Assembly: GCA_003250355.1 (NCBI GenBank) | Contig: QKGS01000077.1 | Coordinates: forward strand, 1 to 64,000 | Direction: 5' to 3' | Length of the DNA: 64,000 bases | DNA from: Bacteroidota bacterium | GTDB taxonomy: Bacteria > Bacteroidota > Bacteroidia > Bacteroidales > SZUA-534 | Shown: positions 8,771-19,247 of the stretch, in pieces | Numbering within the stretch: position 1 is the stretch's first letter | Layout: the number at the start of each line of letters is the position of its first letter | Translations under genes and position numbers: made by a program | The notes under the pieces: generated by a model | Told to the model about the DNA's origin: nothing | Databases searched by the model: none | The model's input: the letters and a program-made list of their open reading frames with translations, nothing else

Positions 8771-9973
8771 ATGAACAAAGTCCTGATTATCGGAGCCGGA
8801 GGTGTAAGCAACGTAGTAGTGCACAAGTGTGCATCCCTTCCGGAAGTATTTGGTGAGATAGTTTTAGCCTCTCGTACCAAAAGCAAGTGCGATACCATTG
8901 CACAAGGTGTAAAACAACGTTTGAACCGTGACATTATTACCGAGGCACTCAATGCCGATAATGTACAGGAAACGGTTGCCCTTATTAAAAAGCATCAGCC
9001 CAAACTGGTTATTAATGTTGCTCTTCCGTATCAAGATTTAGCCATAATGGATGCCTGTCTTGAAACAGGTGTCGATTATCTCGATACTGCTAACTATGAA
9101 CCAAAAGACGAAGCTAAATTTGAATACAAATGGCAATGGGCTTACCAAGATAAATTTAAAAATGCCGGATTAATGGCACTTCTTGGGTCAGGTTTCGACC
9201 CGGGAGTAACAAACATATTCTGTGCCTATGCCCAGAAACACTTATTCGACGAAATTCACTACGTTGATATTGTTGACTGTAATGGCGGCGACCATGGAAA
9301 AGCATTTGCCACAAACTTTAACCCCGAAATTAACATTCGTGAAATAACTGCTCGCGGACGTTACTGGGAAAATGGCAACTGGGAAAGCACCGACCCCCTT
9401 TCTGTTAATCAGGATTTCGATTTTCCGGGAGTTGGAACACGCAAAATGTATCTAATGTACCACGAAGAACTTGAGTCGCTTTGCCAAAACTTAAAAGGTT
9501 TGAAACGTATCCGTTTTTGGATGACATTCGGTCAAGAATATCTTACTCACTTACGTGTAATGCAAAACATTGGTATTACTCGTATCGATGAGGTAGAATA
9601 CAAAGGACAAAAAATTGTCCCTATTGAGTTCCTTAAAGCACTCCTACCCGACCCCGGTTCATTAGCCGAAAACTATACCGGTAAAACATCAATAGGTTGT
9701 GTTATTGAAGGATTAAAAGACGGCAAAAAAGTTCGTAAATTCATATACAACATTTGCGACCATGCCGAAACATACAAAGAGGTTGGCTCACAAGCTATAT
9801 CGTACACTACCGGTGTTCCGGCTATGATAGGTGCAAAAATGATACTTACAGGCAAATGGAAACAAGCCGGAGTATACAATATAGAGCAACTCGACCCCGA
9901 TCCATTCATGGACGATTTAAATAAGTACGGATTACCTTGGCATATTGAAGAATGGAGCAGTTCGGTAAAATAA
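8771..9973 (+). CDS. Saccharopine dehydrogenase-family protein, probable carboxy(nor)spermidine dehydrogenase
   Basis: LIIGAGGVSNVVVHKCA Rossmann motif, GFDPGVTNIFCAYAQKH; overlaps nspC. Confidence 0.88.
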   Translation: MNKVLIIGAGGVSNVVVHKCASLPEVFGEIVLASRTKSKCDTIAQGVKQRLNRDIITEALNADNVQETVALIKKHQPKLVINVALPYQDLAIMDACLETGVDYLDTANYEPKDEAKFEYKWQWAYQDKFKNAGLMALLGSGFDPGVTNIFCAYAQKHLFDEIHYVDIVDCNGGDHGKAFATNFNPEINIREITARGRYWENGNWESTDPLSVNQDFDFPGVGTRKMYLMYHEELESLCQNLKGLKRIRFWMTFGQEYLTHLRVMQNIGITRIDEVEYKGQKIVPIEFLKALLPDPGSLAENYTGKTSIGCVIEGLKDGKKVRKFIYNICDHAETYKEVGSQAISYTTGVPAMIGAKMILTGKWKQAGVYNIEQLDPDPFMDDLNKYGLPWHIEEWSSSVK

Positions 9974-11121
9974 AGCTTAACGAAAAACAGTTAAAAAGCC
10001 TAAAAACACCTTGCTATATTGTAAATGAAACTAAGCTTGAGGAAAACCTCAGGCTTCTTAAATATGTTCAAGATAAAACAGGCTGTAAAATACTTTTAGC
10101 ATTTAAAGGTTTTGCCATGTGGAGCATGGCAAAACTTGTTCGCAAATATCTGCCCGGCACATCGGCAAGTTCTGTTAGTGAAGCCCGTTTAGGTCGTCAC
10201 GAATTTGGTGGTATGCTACACTGCTATGCGCCTGCATATTCGCAAGCCGATATTGACGAACATGTAAAACTAGCCGACCATATTGTATTCAATTCACCCG
10301 GTCAGTGGAACAATTTTAAAGAACAACTAAAAAAATACCCGCAAATTAAATGCGGCTTGCGTATTAATCCGGAACATTCCGAAACCGATACTGCTATTTA
10401 CGACCCCAGCGGTCCAAACAGCCGATTAGGTACCACTCTTAAAAATTTTGAAGCAAATATTCAAAACCTCGAAGGTATATCGGGTTTACACTTTCATAAT
10501 TTATGTGAACTAAATTCCGATGCTTTGGAACGTACACTTGCTGTTGTTGAAGAAAAATTCGGATTCTATTTTAACAAAATATCATGGATAAACTTTGGCG
10601 GCGGACACCATATTACCCGCCCCGATTATGATATTGAAAAGCTTGTAAACATTATTAACAACTTTAAAAGTAAATACAAGCTCGATGTATATTTAGAACC
10701 CGGCGAAGCTATTGCTCTAAATACCGGAGTACTGGTTTCTACTGTTTTAGATGTATTCAATAACGGTATGGACTTGGCTATTCTTGACACTTCGGCAACA
10801 GCACATATGCCCGATGTACTTGAAATGCCTTACCGCCCATATATTGAAAATGCCGGTGAACCCGAAAAACTTGCTCATACATTCCGCCTTGGTGGTGTTA
10901 CCTGCCTTGCAGGCGATGTTATTGGCGACTACAGCTTCAATGAACCTGTTAAAATAGGCGACAAACTTGTTTTCGGCGATATGGCACACTATACCATGGT
11001 TAAAAACACTACTTTTAACGGGGTTCGTTTACCTAATATTTATAAGTTCAATTCTCAAACTAAAGAATTAACACTTATTAAAGAATTCGGTTACAATGAC
11101 TATAAATCGAGATTAAGTTAA
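9952..11121 (+). CDS. nspC: Carboxynorspermidine/carboxyspermidine decarboxylase
   Basis: PLP fold III decarboxylase; 'TPCYIVNETKLEENLRLL', 'LLAFKGFAMWSM', 'LHFHNLCE', 'WINFGGGHHITRPDYD'; 22 bp overlap with upstream dehydrogenase. Confidence 0.92.
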   Translation: MEQFGKIKLNEKQLKSLKTPCYIVNETKLEENLRLLKYVQDKTGCKILLAFKGFAMWSMAKLVRKYLPGTSASSVSEARLGRHEFGGMLHCYAPAYSQADIDEHVKLADHIVFNSPGQWNNFKEQLKKYPQIKCGLRINPEHSETDTAIYDPSGPNSRLGTTLKNFEANIQNLEGISGLHFHNLCELNSDALERTLAVVEEKFGFYFNKISWINFGGGHHITRPDYDIEKLVNIINNFKSKYKLDVYLEPGEAIALNTGVLVSTVLDVFNNGMDLAILDTSATAHMPDVLEMPYRPYIENAGEPEKLAHTFRLGGVTCLAGDVIGDYSFNEPVKIGDKLVFGDMAHYTMVKNTTFNGVRLPNIYKFNSQTKELTLIKEFGYNDYKSRLS

Positions 11122-11158
11122 ATTATAATTTTTAAGCACCATTCATAAGCATACATAA

Positions 11159-13054
11159 ATGAGAAAATGGACAATTGAAGACTCAGTTGAACTATACAAC
11201 ATAAAAGGTTGGGGAGTAAACTATTTTTCAATCAACGATAAAGGAAATGTAACAGTTACACCCAATAAAAACGGTGTTAGTATTGACCTAAAAGAAGTAA
11301 TTGACGAACTTTTGGTTCGCGACATTACTACTCCTGTCCTATTACGTTTCCCCGATATTCTTGACAACAGAATTATAAAAATGAACAACTGCTTTAAAAA
11401 GGCTGCTACTGAATATGACTTTAAAGGTGAAAGCTTTGTTGTTTATCCTATTAAAGTTAATCAAACACAACCTGTTGTTGAAGAAATAGTTAGCTATGGC
11501 AAAAAATTCAACATTGGTCTTGAAGCAGGTTCAAAACCCGAACTTCATGCAGTTATAGCATCGAGTACCGATAACGATTCACTAATTGTATGCAATGGCT
11601 ACAAAGACGAAGACTATATTGAACTTGCTCTACTTGCCCAAAAAATGGGTCGTAGAATATACCTTGTAGTTGAAAAACTCAATGAGCTTAAAATGATAAC
11701 CACCATTGCCGAGCGTTTGGAAATAATACCAAACATAGGCATAAGAGTAAAACTTGCAAGCTCTGGCAGCGGAAAGTGGGAAAGCTCCGGTGGCGATGTT
11801 AGCAAATTCGGACTTACTTCGAGCGACCTTTGCGAAGCAATGGAGTATCTGGAATCAATAAATATGAAGGAAAGTGTGAAACTAATTCACTTTCATATAG
11901 GTAGCCAGGTTACAAAAATTCGTTTAATAAAGATAGCATTACGCGAAGCTGCTCAGTTTTATGTACAATTCCGCAAAGAAGGTTACAATGTAGAATTTGT
12001 TGATATAGGCGGCGGACTTGGAGTCGATTACGATGGTACAAAATCGGCAAACAGCGAAAGCAGTGTTAATTACAGTATCCAGGAATATGTTAACGATGCT
12101 ATTTCGTGCATGGTCGATGCTTCTGATAAAAATGGTATCCCACACCCAAATATAATAACAGAATCGGGGCGTTCGCTTACAGCTCACCATTCGGTACTAG
12201 TATTTGAAGTTCTTGAAAAATCATCGCTACCCGAATGGAAAGATGATGTTGAAATAAGCGAAAACGACCACGACCTTGTTAAGGAGCTTTACGAAGCACG
12301 TGAATGCCTAAACCAATCGCGAATGCTCGAATTATGGCACGACGCACAAATAATTCGCGAAGAAGCTCTTGACCGATTTAGTTTGGGTATGTTAAACATA
12401 AAAACACGTGCTCAAATAGAACGCTTATTTTGGAGTATTGCCAAAGATATTTACAAAATGACAGCTAACCTTAAACACGTACCCGATGAGTTTAATACTT
12501 TATCGAAGCTGTTGTCTGAAAAATACTTCTGTAATTTCTCACTATTTCAGTCATTGCCCGACTCTTGGGCTATTGATCAGATATTCCCTATAATACCATT
12601 ACACCGTCATAATGAACGCCCTGAAGTACAAGCAACATTTCAAGACATTACTTGTGATTCTGATGGCAAAATCGAAAACTTTATTGCAACAAAAAATGTT
12701 TCATACAATTTGCCTGTTCATAAACTCAATGACGATGATTCATATTATATAGGTGTATTTTTGGTTGGAGCATATCAGGAAATTTTGGGTGACCTTCACA
12801 ACTTATTCGGCGATACTAATGCTGTACATATATCAACAAAAAATGGAACATACAGCATAGACCAAATAATTGATGGTGAAACCGTTGCCGATGTTTTAGA
12901 ATATGTTCAGTATAACCCTAAGAAACTTGTACGAACAGTAGAAACATGGGTAACATCGTCGGTAAAAGCAGGTAAAATTTCACCTAAAGAAGGGAAAGAG
13001 TTTTTATCGAACTACCGTTCCGGTCTTTATGGATATACTTACTTAGAAAAATAA
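11159..13054 (+). CDS. speA: Biosynthetic arginine decarboxylase
   Basis: 631 aa; 'VYPIKVNQTQPVVEEIV', 'GLEAGSKPEL', 'LIHFHIGSQV', 'VDIGGGLGVDYDG' and SpeA-type C-terminal region. Confidence 0.95.
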   Translation: MRKWTIEDSVELYNIKGWGVNYFSINDKGNVTVTPNKNGVSIDLKEVIDELLVRDITTPVLLRFPDILDNRIIKMNNCFKKAATEYDFKGESFVVYPIKVNQTQPVVEEIVSYGKKFNIGLEAGSKPELHAVIASSTDNDSLIVCNGYKDEDYIELALLAQKMGRRIYLVVEKLNELKMITTIAERLEIIPNIGIRVKLASSGSGKWESSGGDVSKFGLTSSDLCEAMEYLESINMKESVKLIHFHIGSQVTKIRLIKIALREAAQFYVQFRKEGYNVEFVDIGGGLGVDYDGTKSANSESSVNYSIQEYVNDAISCMVDASDKNGIPHPNIITESGRSLTAHHSVLVFEVLEKSSLPEWKDDVEISENDHDLVKELYEARECLNQSRMLELWHDAQIIREEALDRFSLGMLNIKTRAQIERLFWSIAKDIYKMTANLKHVPDEFNTLSKLLSEKYFCNFSLFQSLPDSWAIDQIFPIIPLHRHNERPEVQATFQDITCDSDGKIENFIATKNVSYNLPVHKLNDDDSYYIGVFLVGAYQEILGDLHNLFGDTNAVHISTKNGTYSIDQIIDGETVADVLEYVQYNPKKLVRTVETWVTSSVKAGKISPKEGKEFLSNYRSGLYGYTYLEK

Positions 13055-13197: not shown

Positions 13198-13358
13198 ATC
13201 CGCATATTTGACAAATTTCACAGATTTGATTTTTGGTTTATGCATTTAAAGCAAATAAATGCAAGCAGAAAGCTATCGCATTAGAAGGGCTGTTTAAAGC
13301 CTATATTATTGCAAACCAACGAGCTTTTAGGTGCTCATTTTTGAAATATTATGAGCTA

Positions 13359-13652
13359 TTACACAACCATAGCAAAAATTTTCTTAATCTCACATTTCAA
13401 GCACTTGCTTCTAAACCGGAAGATTGTATTATGATCAGGTCTTTGCATCCCGCTCAACCACATATAATAAATGTTCAATTTAAGTTGTTCTTCTATCCCT
13501 CGTGAGGAGTAAACGTTGATCAGATAGGCAAAAATGTTACAAATTCTTATGGATTCAAGGGAGTATTTTGACTTTTTTTCTCCTGATTTACAAACAGTTA
13601 CTATTGATAACTCAAAAATAGAATTCGTGCTAATTCGTGAAATTCGTGGCAA
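13359..13652 (-). pseudogene. IS1182-type (DUF772) transposase remnant
   Basis: 'LINVYSSRGIEEQLKLNIYYMWLSGMQRPDHNTIFRFRSKCLKCEIKKIFAMVV' resembles the N-terminal region of IS1182-family transposases; stops follow immediately and the catalytic core is missing. Confidence 0.8.
13621..13650. repeat. Three tandem about 10 bp CACGAATT units
   Basis: Minus strand: GCCACGAATTTCACGAATTAGCACGAATTC. Confidence 0.8.
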
Positions 13653-16586: not shown

Positions 16587-17411
16587 ATGGATAATATCAC
16601 TGTTAGAGGACAACAGTTTGGAAAAGATAAGTTCTTTTTAATTAGCGGACCTTGCGTTATTGAAGATGAAAAAATAATGATGCAAACCGCAGAAAGTCTG
16701 AAAAAACTTACCGATAAACTTAATCTTCCTTTCATATTCAAATCATCGTTTATGAAAGATAACCGCAGCTCGGTAGAATACTACATGGGTCCCGGATTAG
16801 ACGAAGGTTTAAAAATGTTGCAAAAAGTAAAGGATACTTTCGATGTTCCTGTTTTAACCGACATTCACTACCCCGACCAACTAAAAGCTGCAGCCGAGGT
16901 TATTGATGTTCTTCAAATACCTGCTTACCTATGTATGCAAACTACCCTGGTGGTTGAAGCTGCAAAAACAGGTTTGCCTATTAATATTAAACACGGACAG
17001 TTTCTTGCACCTGAAAACATGATAAAACCGGTTCAAAAAATTGAATCAACAGGTAACAAAAATATTATTGTAACTGAACGCGGTTTTACTTTCGGGTATA
17101 ACGATATGGTTGTTGACCCTCGTAGTTTCTACGAATTACGACAAACAGGTTATCCTGTAGTATTCGATATTACACACAGTATACGCCGCTATGGCATTCC
17201 TAGTGCCGACCCAACGGGTGGTATGCGTCAGTATTTAAAAACAATAGGCCGTGCAGGTATTGCTGCCGGTGTCGATGGCGTTTTCATTGAAGCGCACCCT
17301 TGCCCTTCAGAAGCTCTTTGCGATGCGGCAAGCCAACTCAATGTTACTGAAATGGAAGAGTTCATAAAACCATTGATTGAGATACACAACATTGAAAAAT
17401 CATACAGATAG
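16587..17411 (+). CDS. kdsA: 3-deoxy-8-phosphooctulonate synthase (KdsA-like, somewhat divergent)
   Basis: 'FLISGPCVIEDE', 'FIFKSSFMKDNRSS', 'VLQIPAYLCMQTTLVV', 'GQFLAPENM', 'VFDITHS', 'GVDGVFIEAHPCP'. Canonical SFDKANRSS and HSVQQP motifs are altered. Confidence 0.88.
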   Translation: MDNITVRGQQFGKDKFFLISGPCVIEDEKIMMQTAESLKKLTDKLNLPFIFKSSFMKDNRSSVEYYMGPGLDEGLKMLQKVKDTFDVPVLTDIHYPDQLKAAAEVIDVLQIPAYLCMQTTLVVEAAKTGLPINIKHGQFLAPENMIKPVQKIESTGNKNIIVTERGFTFGYNDMVVDPRSFYELRQTGYPVVFDITHSIRRYGIPSADPTGGMRQYLKTIGRAGIAAGVDGVFIEAHPCPSEALCDAASQLNVTEMEEFIKPLIEIHNIEKSYR

Positions 17412-17458
17412 TAATTACACATTTTTAAAGAAAATTATAATACACTAAAATATTAACT

Positions 17459-18466
17459 ATGGAATTGTATTTAGATTCAGTTAAGTTTGACGAAATAGAA
17501 CAGGCTAATAACCTTGGGTTTATAACAGGACTTACAACAACACCAACATTTATGCACCGTGAAGGTATTAAAGATGTTGATGCAGCCATATTGAAACTTT
17601 CAAAAATGGTTTCGGTTCTTCAAATTGAAGCTCTTGGCGACAACGCAGAGCAAATAGTTGCAGAAGCTAAACGTTTACTTACACTAGGTTTAGATAAAAA
17701 CAAAACTGTTTTCAAAATCCCTATCTCTTTAGAAGGTGCTAAAGCTTGTAAAATGCTTACTTCTGAAGGATTTATGGTTAACATACACCTTGTATACACT
17801 ATACAACAAGCTTATCTTGCAATGTGTGCAGGTGCTACTTATGTGTGTGTGCTTATTGGACGCGGTCAGGATCAGGGAGTAGATACCCTTACTTTAGCTG
17901 CCGAATGTGTTCAAATGGCCGAAGAGTATGGTTTTGATTCAAAAATTATGTTCTCGTCGGTTCGTAACCTTGAACATATACGCAATGCTATTGATATAGG
18001 CTGCCACACTATTACCGTTCCTTGGTCTATAATGAAAAATATGTGTAACAACAACCTTACAGACATAGGTACAAAACAGTTTGAAGACCACACTAACCTT
18101 ACTATGACTAAGGCTAAAGAAGTGGTAACAACTGAAAATATTACTATAAGCAAAGACAAAACAATTGGCGATGCGTTAATACAAATGACTAAAAACAAGC
18201 TTGGTGCTGTTATAGTTGTTGATGGTAATAACCAAATATACCGCATATTTACCGATGGTGACTTACGCCGTATGCTTAGCGAAGACAATGGCTCTCTTCT
18301 TACTAAAAAATTTACCGATGTAGAACCAAACACCCCGGTAACTGTCGACGCCGATGCTACACTGATGGAAGTTTCTGATATTTTGCACCAAAAGAAAATT
18401 GACAATATTATTGTTACTAACACCGATGGTATTGTAGGTTTAATTGATATTCAGGATATCGTTTAA
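17459..18466 (+). CDS. Transaldolase/fructose-6-phosphate aldolase-like domain fused to tandem KdsD-like CBS domains
   Basis: N-terminus 'LYLDSVKFDEIEQANNLGFITGLTTTPTF', 'TVFKIPIS', 'AYLAMCAGATYVCVLIGRGQDQGVD' (TalC/FSA pattern with candidate Schiff-base Lys). C-terminus 'GALIQMTKNKLGAVIVVDGNNQIYRIFTDGDLRRML...VGLIDIQDIV' (CBS pair with the FTDGDLRR motif of KdsD/KpsF); the first residues of that quote read 'DALIQ' in the ORF track. Confidence 0.88.
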   Translation: MELYLDSVKFDEIEQANNLGFITGLTTTPTFMHREGIKDVDAAILKLSKMVSVLQIEALGDNAEQIVAEAKRLLTLGLDKNKTVFKIPISLEGAKACKMLTSEGFMVNIHLVYTIQQAYLAMCAGATYVCVLIGRGQDQGVDTLTLAAECVQMAEEYGFDSKIMFSSVRNLEHIRNAIDIGCHTITVPWSIMKNMCNNNLTDIGTKQFEDHTNLTMTKAKEVVTTENITISKDKTIGDALIQMTKNKLGAVIVVDGNNQIYRIFTDGDLRRMLSEDNGSLLTKKFTDVEPNTPVTVDADATLMEVSDILHQKKIDNIIVTNTDGIVGLIDIQDIV

Positions 18467-18488
18467 GAAATATCAAATTCAATATATA

Positions 18489-18520
18489 ATGCAAGTTACT
18501 TTCGTAGCTTGCATTTTTTT
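18489..18520 (+). terminator. Hairpin plus T tract between aldolase-CBS and HAD gene
   Basis: ATGCAAGttactttcgtagCTTGCATttttttt. Confidence 0.75.
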
Positions 18521-18536
18521 ATAAATAACATTGCTT

Positions 18537-19247
18537 ATGACTGATATTAAAACAATTGAAAAACTATTTACAGATATAGGAGGATCATTTATAACTCCAG
18601 TTAACGAAATACAGGAAAAGCTTAAAAATGTAAAAGCATTCATCTTCGACTGGGACGGAGTATTTAATAATGGAATGAAAACAGGCGAGCAAGGTAGTTT
18701 ATTCTCCGATGTTGACGCAATGGGTACTAATATGCTTCGCTTTAACTATTACCTTAACAACAATAAAACTATACCGTTAAGTTTTATTATAACAGGTTCC
18801 AACAATCAGTCTGCTATTAAACTTGCTAACCGCGAAAAATTCAATGGCTGCTATTATCAGGCTAAATTCAAAAAAGAGGCTATTGATATGCTTTGCGAAA
18901 AACATAATCTGAACTACGAAAACTTCGCCTTTGTTTTCGATGATATTCTTGACATTGAACTTACTAAAATATGCGGATTATCATTTCAGGTAAAAAGAGA
19001 TTCAAACCCACTTTTTAACCAATTTACCATAGGTAATAAATACTGCAATTATGCTACTGCAAATGCCGGTCATGAACATGGACTACGAGAAATATGCGAA
19101 CTAATTATTGGGTTAACCGGCGATTATTCAGCTACTGTAAACAAACGTGTAGCTTTCCGTGGCGACTATGAAGAGTACCTTGCTCTACGTCAGCAAACTA
19201 CTACTGAAGTTATGAATTTACAACCCGATGTATTAAAAAACGAATAA
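18537..19247 (+). CDS. HAD-family KdsC-like phosphatase (3-deoxy-octulosonate 8-phosphate phosphatase-like)
   Basis: 'AFIFDWDGVFNNG', 'SFIITGSNNQSAIKLA', 'FVFDDILDIEL', 'HGLREICELIIGL'; follows kdsA and aldolase-CBS. Confidence 0.75.
   Translation: MTDIKTIEKLFTDIGGSFITPVNEIQEKLKNVKAFIFDWDGVFNNGMKTGEQGSLFSDVDAMGTNMLRFNYYLNNNKTIPLSFIITGSNNQSAIKLANREKFNGCYYQAKFKKEAIDMLCEKHNLNYENFAFVFDDILDIELTKICGLSFQVKRDSNPLFNQFTIGNKYCNYATANAGHEHGLREICELIIGLTGDYSATVNKRVAFRGDYEEYLALRQQTTTEVMNLQPDVLKNE

Follow-up and report, generated by a model that had tools for sequence, protein, structure and literature searches.

A transaldolase-CBS fusion appears to take the place of KdsD in a variant Kdo module of Bacteroidota

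Results

A Kdo-type locus with an aldolase-fold enzyme in the KdsD position

We analyzed a window of 64,000 nucleotides (positions 1 to 64,000 of contig QKGS01000077.1, Bacteroidota bacterium assembly GCA_003250355.1). Within it, three co-directional genes with intergenic gaps of 47 and 64 bp encode a KdsA-like synthase, a transaldolase/FSA (TAL/FSA) domain fused to a CBS pair (TAL-CBS), and a HAD phosphatase. A preliminary description had placed these genes at 16587-19247, and all three open reading frames were confirmed there:

16587..17411, + strand: kdsA-like gene for a Kdo8P synthase of a variant clade (TIGR01362, 335 bits, above cut-off; signature and tree)
17459..18466, + strand: TAL-CBS fusion, proposed A5P-supplying enzyme replacing KdsD (Pfam, NCBIfam and PDB matches; AlphaFold and Foldseek; anticorrelation with KdsD)
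17459..18091, + strand: transaldolase/FSA-fold barrel of TAL-CBS, residues 1-211 (TIGR00875, E 5.3e-45, below cut-off; Foldseek TMt 0.95 to 3r8r)
17714..17716, + strand: K86 codon of TAL-CBS, the Schiff-base lysine position (FsaA K85, TalB K132), invariant (alignment)
17786..17788, + strand: H110 codon of TAL-CBS, a His specific to the family where FsaA has Thr109 and TalB has Thr156, invariant in 85 fusions (alignment)
18104..18463, + strand: KdsD-type CBS pair of TAL-CBS, residues 216-335, proposed feedback sensor (TIGR00393 positions 154-267; PDB 4o9k, 3fna, 3k2v)
18531..19247, + strand: divergent HAD phosphatase, proposed Kdo8P phosphatase (weak KdsC matches below cut-off; HAD motifs)

The trio recurs across distant lineages, and we therefore rejected a chance arrangement or annotation artefact. 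Upstream in the window, saccharopine-dehydrogenase-like, carboxynorspermidine-decarboxylase-like and arginine decarboxylase genes stand in a row as an ordinary alternative spermidine operon (8771-13054), and an insertion-sequence transposase remnant (DUF772; 13233-13652) lies between the arginine decarboxylase and methyl-accepting chemotaxis genes.

Residues 3-221 of TAL-CBS match TAL_FSA (Pfam PF00923, E 1.5e-34) and are followed by two CBS domains. Pfam and NCBIfam profile searches found no SIS domain in the protein; the KdsD model TIGR00393 matched only at positions 154-267, its CBS part (E 2.5e-18), and KdsD is the closest relative of the CBS pair. The whole protein also matched PDB 4o9k, an "arabinose 5-phosphate isomerase" that we take to have been solved with CMP-Kdo, at E 2.4e-13, and the CBS part alone did so at E 3.5e-14; 3fna and 3k2v were further matches of the pair. 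The motif FTDGDLRR, present in the window's protein, is nearly invariant (81 of 85 family members). Against TIGR00875, TAL-CBS scored 153.4 bits and did not reach the curated cut-off of 245.95. An AlphaFold model built from 37 homologues (pLDDT 92.6) matched solved transaldolases over residues 1-214 by Foldseek, in line with the TIM-barrel fold of that family, and among TAL/FSA proteins the fusions form a separate clade on a long stem. These profile, PDB and structural matches bear out the earlier claim that the middle gene joins a KdsD-type CBS pair to an aldolase rather than a SIS catalytic domain.

The phosphate side of the active site is kept and the donor side is changed

Active-site residues were read from an alignment of 85 fusions with FsaA and TalB of E. 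coli. The fusions retain Asp6, Thr26, Glu at 59, Lys85, Arg134, Ser166 and Arg at 168 (FsaA numbering), and the Schiff-base lysine, K86 in the window's protein, is invariant. In all 85, Asn28 is replaced by Thr, Thr109 by His and Tyr131/Phe178 by Leu, and Ala129/Ser176 is replaced by Cys in 99%. It has been reported that in FSA Lys85 is the covalent catalyst and Tyr131 the proton shuttle, with a water site at Gln59-Thr109-Tyr131 and donor binding by Asn28/Ala129 (PMC13259622). Genuine canonical Bacteroidota TAL/FSA homologues retain the usual donor-site residues, and those of TAL-CBS are unlike every FSA compared. His at 109 appeared in one "canonical" sequence, L039, which proved to be a mis-called ORF and was rejected. 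Judged from the alignment, the phosphate side of TAL-CBS is conserved and the donor side remade, which points to a donor other than dihydroxyacetone. The window's genome encodes no TAL/FSA-family protein besides TAL-CBS, unlike the five further fusion genomes of our panel, each of which also has a canonical one.

The synthase and the phosphatase are both non-canonical

The KdsA-like assignment stood at the level of the family, with 335.2 bits against TIGR01362 (curated cut-off 314), but the substrate pocket is not that of ordinary KdsA. The window's protein has a KDNRSS motif, Y117/M120/H139/R205 (E. coli numbering), and the Cys of the metal-dependent type within SGPCVIE. Cassette KdsA proteins form a separate clade (56 of 56) with a long stem and node support of only 0.46. 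A61D, F117Y, R120M, K139H, Q205R and an altered loop L7 are fixed in the 56 cassette copies, one of which is incomplete at some positions, and are absent from 27 KdsA of KdsD genomes. The KANRS motif reads KDNRS in the cassette copies, with N62 and R63 retained together with the other catalytic and phosphate residues K55, K60, K138, R168 and H202; metal and PEP residues are also conserved. Aquifex KdsA entries (1t8x and others) have Gly at the Arg120 equivalent, and are presumably R106G mutants. The F117 equivalent and loop L7 lie in the A5P pocket of KdsA (PMC6650799; residue numbers converted by a fixed shift of 5).

The third gene had been called a KdsC-like phosphatase. Its HAD motifs, DWDG/K/DD, are present (D40xD42, K114 and D137D138 are shared by 95% or more of 64 homologues), but the likeness to KdsC is weak, at 46.6 bits against TIGR01670 (cut-off 106.95), and Pfam gave no match. 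The gene start was called as TTG; ATG at 18537 is also possible. The protein is the only KdsC-like one of the window's genome. Canonical KdsC was not found in the window's genome, G120 or G322, that is, in three of the six fusion genomes; in G175, G219 and G415 it is encoded away from the cassette, in two of them near a weak cytidylyltransferase match, a setting consistent with another sugar acid. The preliminary description had overlooked both the separate KdsA clade with its fixed pocket changes and the absence of canonical KdsC from the window's genome.

The fusion travels with Kdo genes

We compared 85 fusion loci, comprising the window, five further genomes and 79 GTDB contigs. The fusion is flanked by kdsA in 56 and by the HAD gene in 64, many of the loci without a partner gene stopping at a contig edge; kdsB, kdnA and kdnB are the next most frequent neighbours. 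When all neighbours were clustered, the families commonest beside the fusion were Kdo genes, and no glycolaldehyde-forming gene was found among the conserved neighbours at the 85 loci. Across genomes, the survey thus revealed strong co-occurrence of TAL-CBS with kdsA, kdsC-like and kdsB genes. G219 carries the fusion, the KdsA variant and the HAD gene on three separate contigs, and all are of the cassette type. At the Labilibacter marinus locus (L118), a second TAL-CBS-like BLAST match (26% identical) lies at about 7156, 2.8 kb upstream of the fusion at 10001. Cultured bacteria that carry TAL-CBS occur in Raineya, Thermonema and Saccharicrinis.

The linked KdnB matches the solved Kdo 8-oxidase 5k8c (E 8e-122) and the linked KdnA the solved 8-amino-Kdo transaminase 5k8b (E 6e-126); since both are Kdo enzymes, the pathway would pass through Kdo itself. 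A search of the window's genome for kdsB found it (above cut-off) together with kdnB and kdnA on another contig. On that contig (C70), between kdnB and kdnA, lie adjacent heptamer arrays, AGTAGTG x38 and CTCATAT x27 (L175:11439-11901); similar short repeats, read as an ORF, directly follow the HAD gene at L057 10902-12020. Genomes with TAL-CBS carry kdnB in 32 of 47 cases, compared to 1 of 28 KdsD genomes. 8-amino-Kdo is a frequent though not a necessary feature of fusion genomes, and we rejected a cassette solely for 8-amino-Kdo because 15 of the 47 TAL-CBS genomes are without kdnB.

In a Desulfobacterales-labelled MAG (L113:510-12555), a WaaA-family gene and kdsB precede the trio, with LPS glycosyltransferases and a heptosyltransferase downstream. 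The kdsB there is about 40% like Bacteroidota kdsB, and KdsA and TAL-CBS share about 70% identity with the Bacteroidota copies; no SIS-KdsD match was found in this genome. The gene order suggests that the three genes entered the LPS locus together, as a functional unit. Horizontal transfer out of Bacteroidota is possible, and the presence of the cassette in this MAG may also reflect mis-binning.

TAL-CBS and SIS-type KdsD are almost never found together

No SIS-type A5P isomerase was found in the window's genome, where the SIS search gave only GlmS (two domains) and GmhA (192 aa, above the GmhA cut-off, encoded beside heptose genes). The canonical KdsD that might have been encoded elsewhere in this genome was thus not found, and with so clean a search we rejected an assembly gap. 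Our panel held 42 genomes, 34 with KdsA and 8 without. Each of the 34 has exactly one of the two enzymes, the fusion (6) or SIS-KdsD (28), so that KdsD occurs in 0 of 6 fusion genomes versus 28 of 28 KdsA-positive genomes without the fusion; the 8 KdsA-negative genomes have neither. The SIS-KdsD proteins of the panel comprise 22 full and 6 single-domain forms (single-SIS matches around 1e-45). A single-domain SIS isomerase of the latter kind was rejected for the TAL-CBS genomes, where none occurs save a 55-residue fragment in G432.

A draw of 218 Bacteroidota genomes gave the same picture: 161 have KdsA, 157 have SIS-KdsD and 155 have both, and among KdsA-positive genomes KdsD is present in 0 of 4 with the fusion versus 155 of 157 without it; the genomes are related, so p-values for the exclusion are descriptive only. 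The six with KdsA and no KdsD are the window's genome, G120, G175 and G219, which have the fusion, and G052 and G229 (a fragmented assembly), which have neither enzyme and whose KdsA is of the canonical type. Furthermore, 40 of 42 further fusion genomes are without KdsD. An assembly gap was rejected for the group as well, KdsD being missing from these 40 of 42 and from five further genomes, all 99-100% complete. The two fusion genomes that also carry kdsD have it beside recQ, as in KdsD-only relatives, and away from the cassette; it looks like a retained ancestral copy. Taken together, the genomic distribution strongly supports, and makes highly probable, the replacement of KdsD by TAL-CBS.

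A proposed module and its alternatives

We consider it probable that the locus is a non-orthologous Kdo module, for which we infer product, feedstock and feedback. TAL-CBS would be the source of D-arabinose 5-phosphate (A5P), and the KdsA variant encoded next to it would convert A5P and PEP to Kdo8P; the HAD protein would take the phosphate off Kdo8P, and KdsB, encoded in the window's genome beside kdnA/kdnB, would activate either Kdo or 8-amino-Kdo. Feedback would run through the KdsD-type CBS pair as sensor of the end product, likely CMP-Kdo. With similar confidence, we propose A5P as the product of TAL-CBS, formed by lysine-imine chemistry. A5P is fructose 6-phosphate minus C1, and ribose 5-phosphate is the C2 epimer of A5P. 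An A5P imine on C1 would span a lysine-to-phosphate distance equal to that of fructose 6-phosphate, with four bonds from the carbonyl to the phosphate-bearing carbon, as from C2 to C6 in the latter. K86 would form the imine with the C1 carbonyl of a C5 sugar, and the conserved Arg/Ser/Arg site would hold the 5-phosphate.

As to the reaction, two routes are tentative proposals of nearly equal standing: aldol addition of glycolaldehyde to glyceraldehyde 3-phosphate, slightly favoured, and C2 epimerisation of ribose 5-phosphate through an aldimine or a retro-aldol step, which is chemically conceivable. E. coli FsaA is in use as an A5P aldolase that makes A5P from glycolaldehyde and glyceraldehyde 3-phosphate (PMC9947464), and this use, with the retained Schiff-base lysine and phosphate site, renders aldol chemistry plausible. 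Against it, the FSA proton shuttle Tyr131 is Leu in TAL-CBS, and glycolaldehyde supply is a weak point, no gene forming it being linked. The earlier suggestion of A5P supply by aldol chemistry therefore fares well as to the replacement of KdsD and is only plausible as to the aldol step, given the different donor-site residues and the lack of a linked glycolaldehyde source. The module as a whole also has to accommodate the KdsA pocket changes, unexpected with unchanged substrates, as well as the two genomes with both TAL-CBS and KdsD and the two KdsA-positive genomes with neither.

It is improbable, in our judgment, that another aldose phosphate is formed by the cassette, leading to some other 3-deoxy-ulosonic acid or phosphorylated intermediate, and that its three enzymes changed together since the intermediate changed. 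All three are indeed non-canonical and travel together, and half of the six fusion genomes lack canonical KdsC; the main reason to keep this idea, already raised in the preliminary description, is that the KdsA clade changed at A5P-pocket and loop L7 positions (pocket residues in PMC6650799). However, the linked genes acting downstream are specific to Kdo (KdsB, which scores above cut-off, KdnB/KdnA, and WaaA once, in L113), which makes a different ulosonic acid less likely, and KdsA retains the seven catalytic and phosphate residues listed above.

Quite improbable is an aldose-ketose isomerase on a transaldolase scaffold, which would turn ribulose 5-phosphate into A5P with His110 and Asp6 as acid/base and no imine, as a true functional analogue of KdsD. 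Such an enzyme would use KdsD's own, readily available substrate, and would fit the new invariant His in Thr109's place, the retained phosphate-binding residues and the KdsD-type CBS pair. Yet the Schiff-base lysine is invariant although an imine is no help to aldose-ketose isomerisation, and the carbonyl-phosphate spacing of ribulose 5-phosphate is one bond shorter than the fructose 6-phosphate geometry of the site.

Finally, an ordinary transaldolase/F6P aldolase of central metabolism under Kdo feedback, with A5P coming from an unrecognised or promiscuous isomerase, is very unlikely: TAL-CBS, the sole TAL/FSA protein in the window's genome, could serve the pentose phosphate pathway there and GmhA, a SIS protein, isomerises a related sugar phosphate, but each of the five further fusion genomes encodes a canonical TAL/FSA as well, donor-site residues kept in all genuine canonical homologues are replaced in TAL-CBS, and the near-perfect exclusion with KdsD would be left without explanation.

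Discussion

Kdo is the sugar that anchors outer-membrane lipopolysaccharide. Most Gram-negative bacteria cannot do without its synthesis, an antibiotic target generally presented as a single conserved chain of enzymes. In the open-licence PMC papers searched we found no description of a TAL-CBS fusion or of a non-SIS A5P source. Many Bacteroidota appear to make Kdo with TAL-CBS in place of KdsD, a modified KdsA and a phosphatase of a new kind. With somewhat more confidence than doubt, we regard TAL-CBS as a new natural lysine-imine A5P-forming enzyme, either the first physiological A5P aldolase or a ribose-5-phosphate 2-epimerase, accompanied by a KdsA clade that evolved with it and by a new phosphatase. 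If so, a widespread alternative first step would explain Kdo synthesis without KdsD in many Bacteroidota, Kdo would have a second, separately evolved route, and the fusion would be a testable new sugar-phosphate enzyme. It would also counsel caution in annotating the trio simply as a transaldolase, a KdsA and a hypothetical protein.

Compared to known systems, TAL-CBS shares with KdsD/GutQ/KpsF (TIGR00393) its pathway position, its occurrence in Kdo-making genomes and a C-terminal CBS pair of KdsD type with the DGDLRR motif, but has a TAL/FSA barrel of unrelated fold instead of the SIS domain. With FsaA/TalC (TIGR00875; PDB 1vpx, 3r8r) it has in common the fold, the Schiff-base Lys, Asp6 and the phosphate-site Arg/Ser/Arg, and it departs from them in the fixed N28T, T109H, A129C and Y131L, the fused CBS pair and the score below cut-off. 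The cassette KdsA resembles metal-dependent KdsA such as that of Aquifex aeolicus (1fwn) in its metal-binding Cys and catalytic residues, is 40% identical to E. coli KdsA, and differs from KdsA (TIGR01362) in KDNRS, F117Y, R120M, K139H, Q205R and the changed loop L7. The HAD protein is like KdsC/YrbI (TIGR01670) in its motifs, weak sequence similarity and operon position, and unlike it in scoring far below cut-off and in its 220-240 aa with extensions. The KdnA/KdnB 8-amino-Kdo pathway, although often in one cluster with TAL-CBS, is a Kdo-consuming add-on, missing in 15 TAL-CBS genomes, and so is not the function of the cassette.
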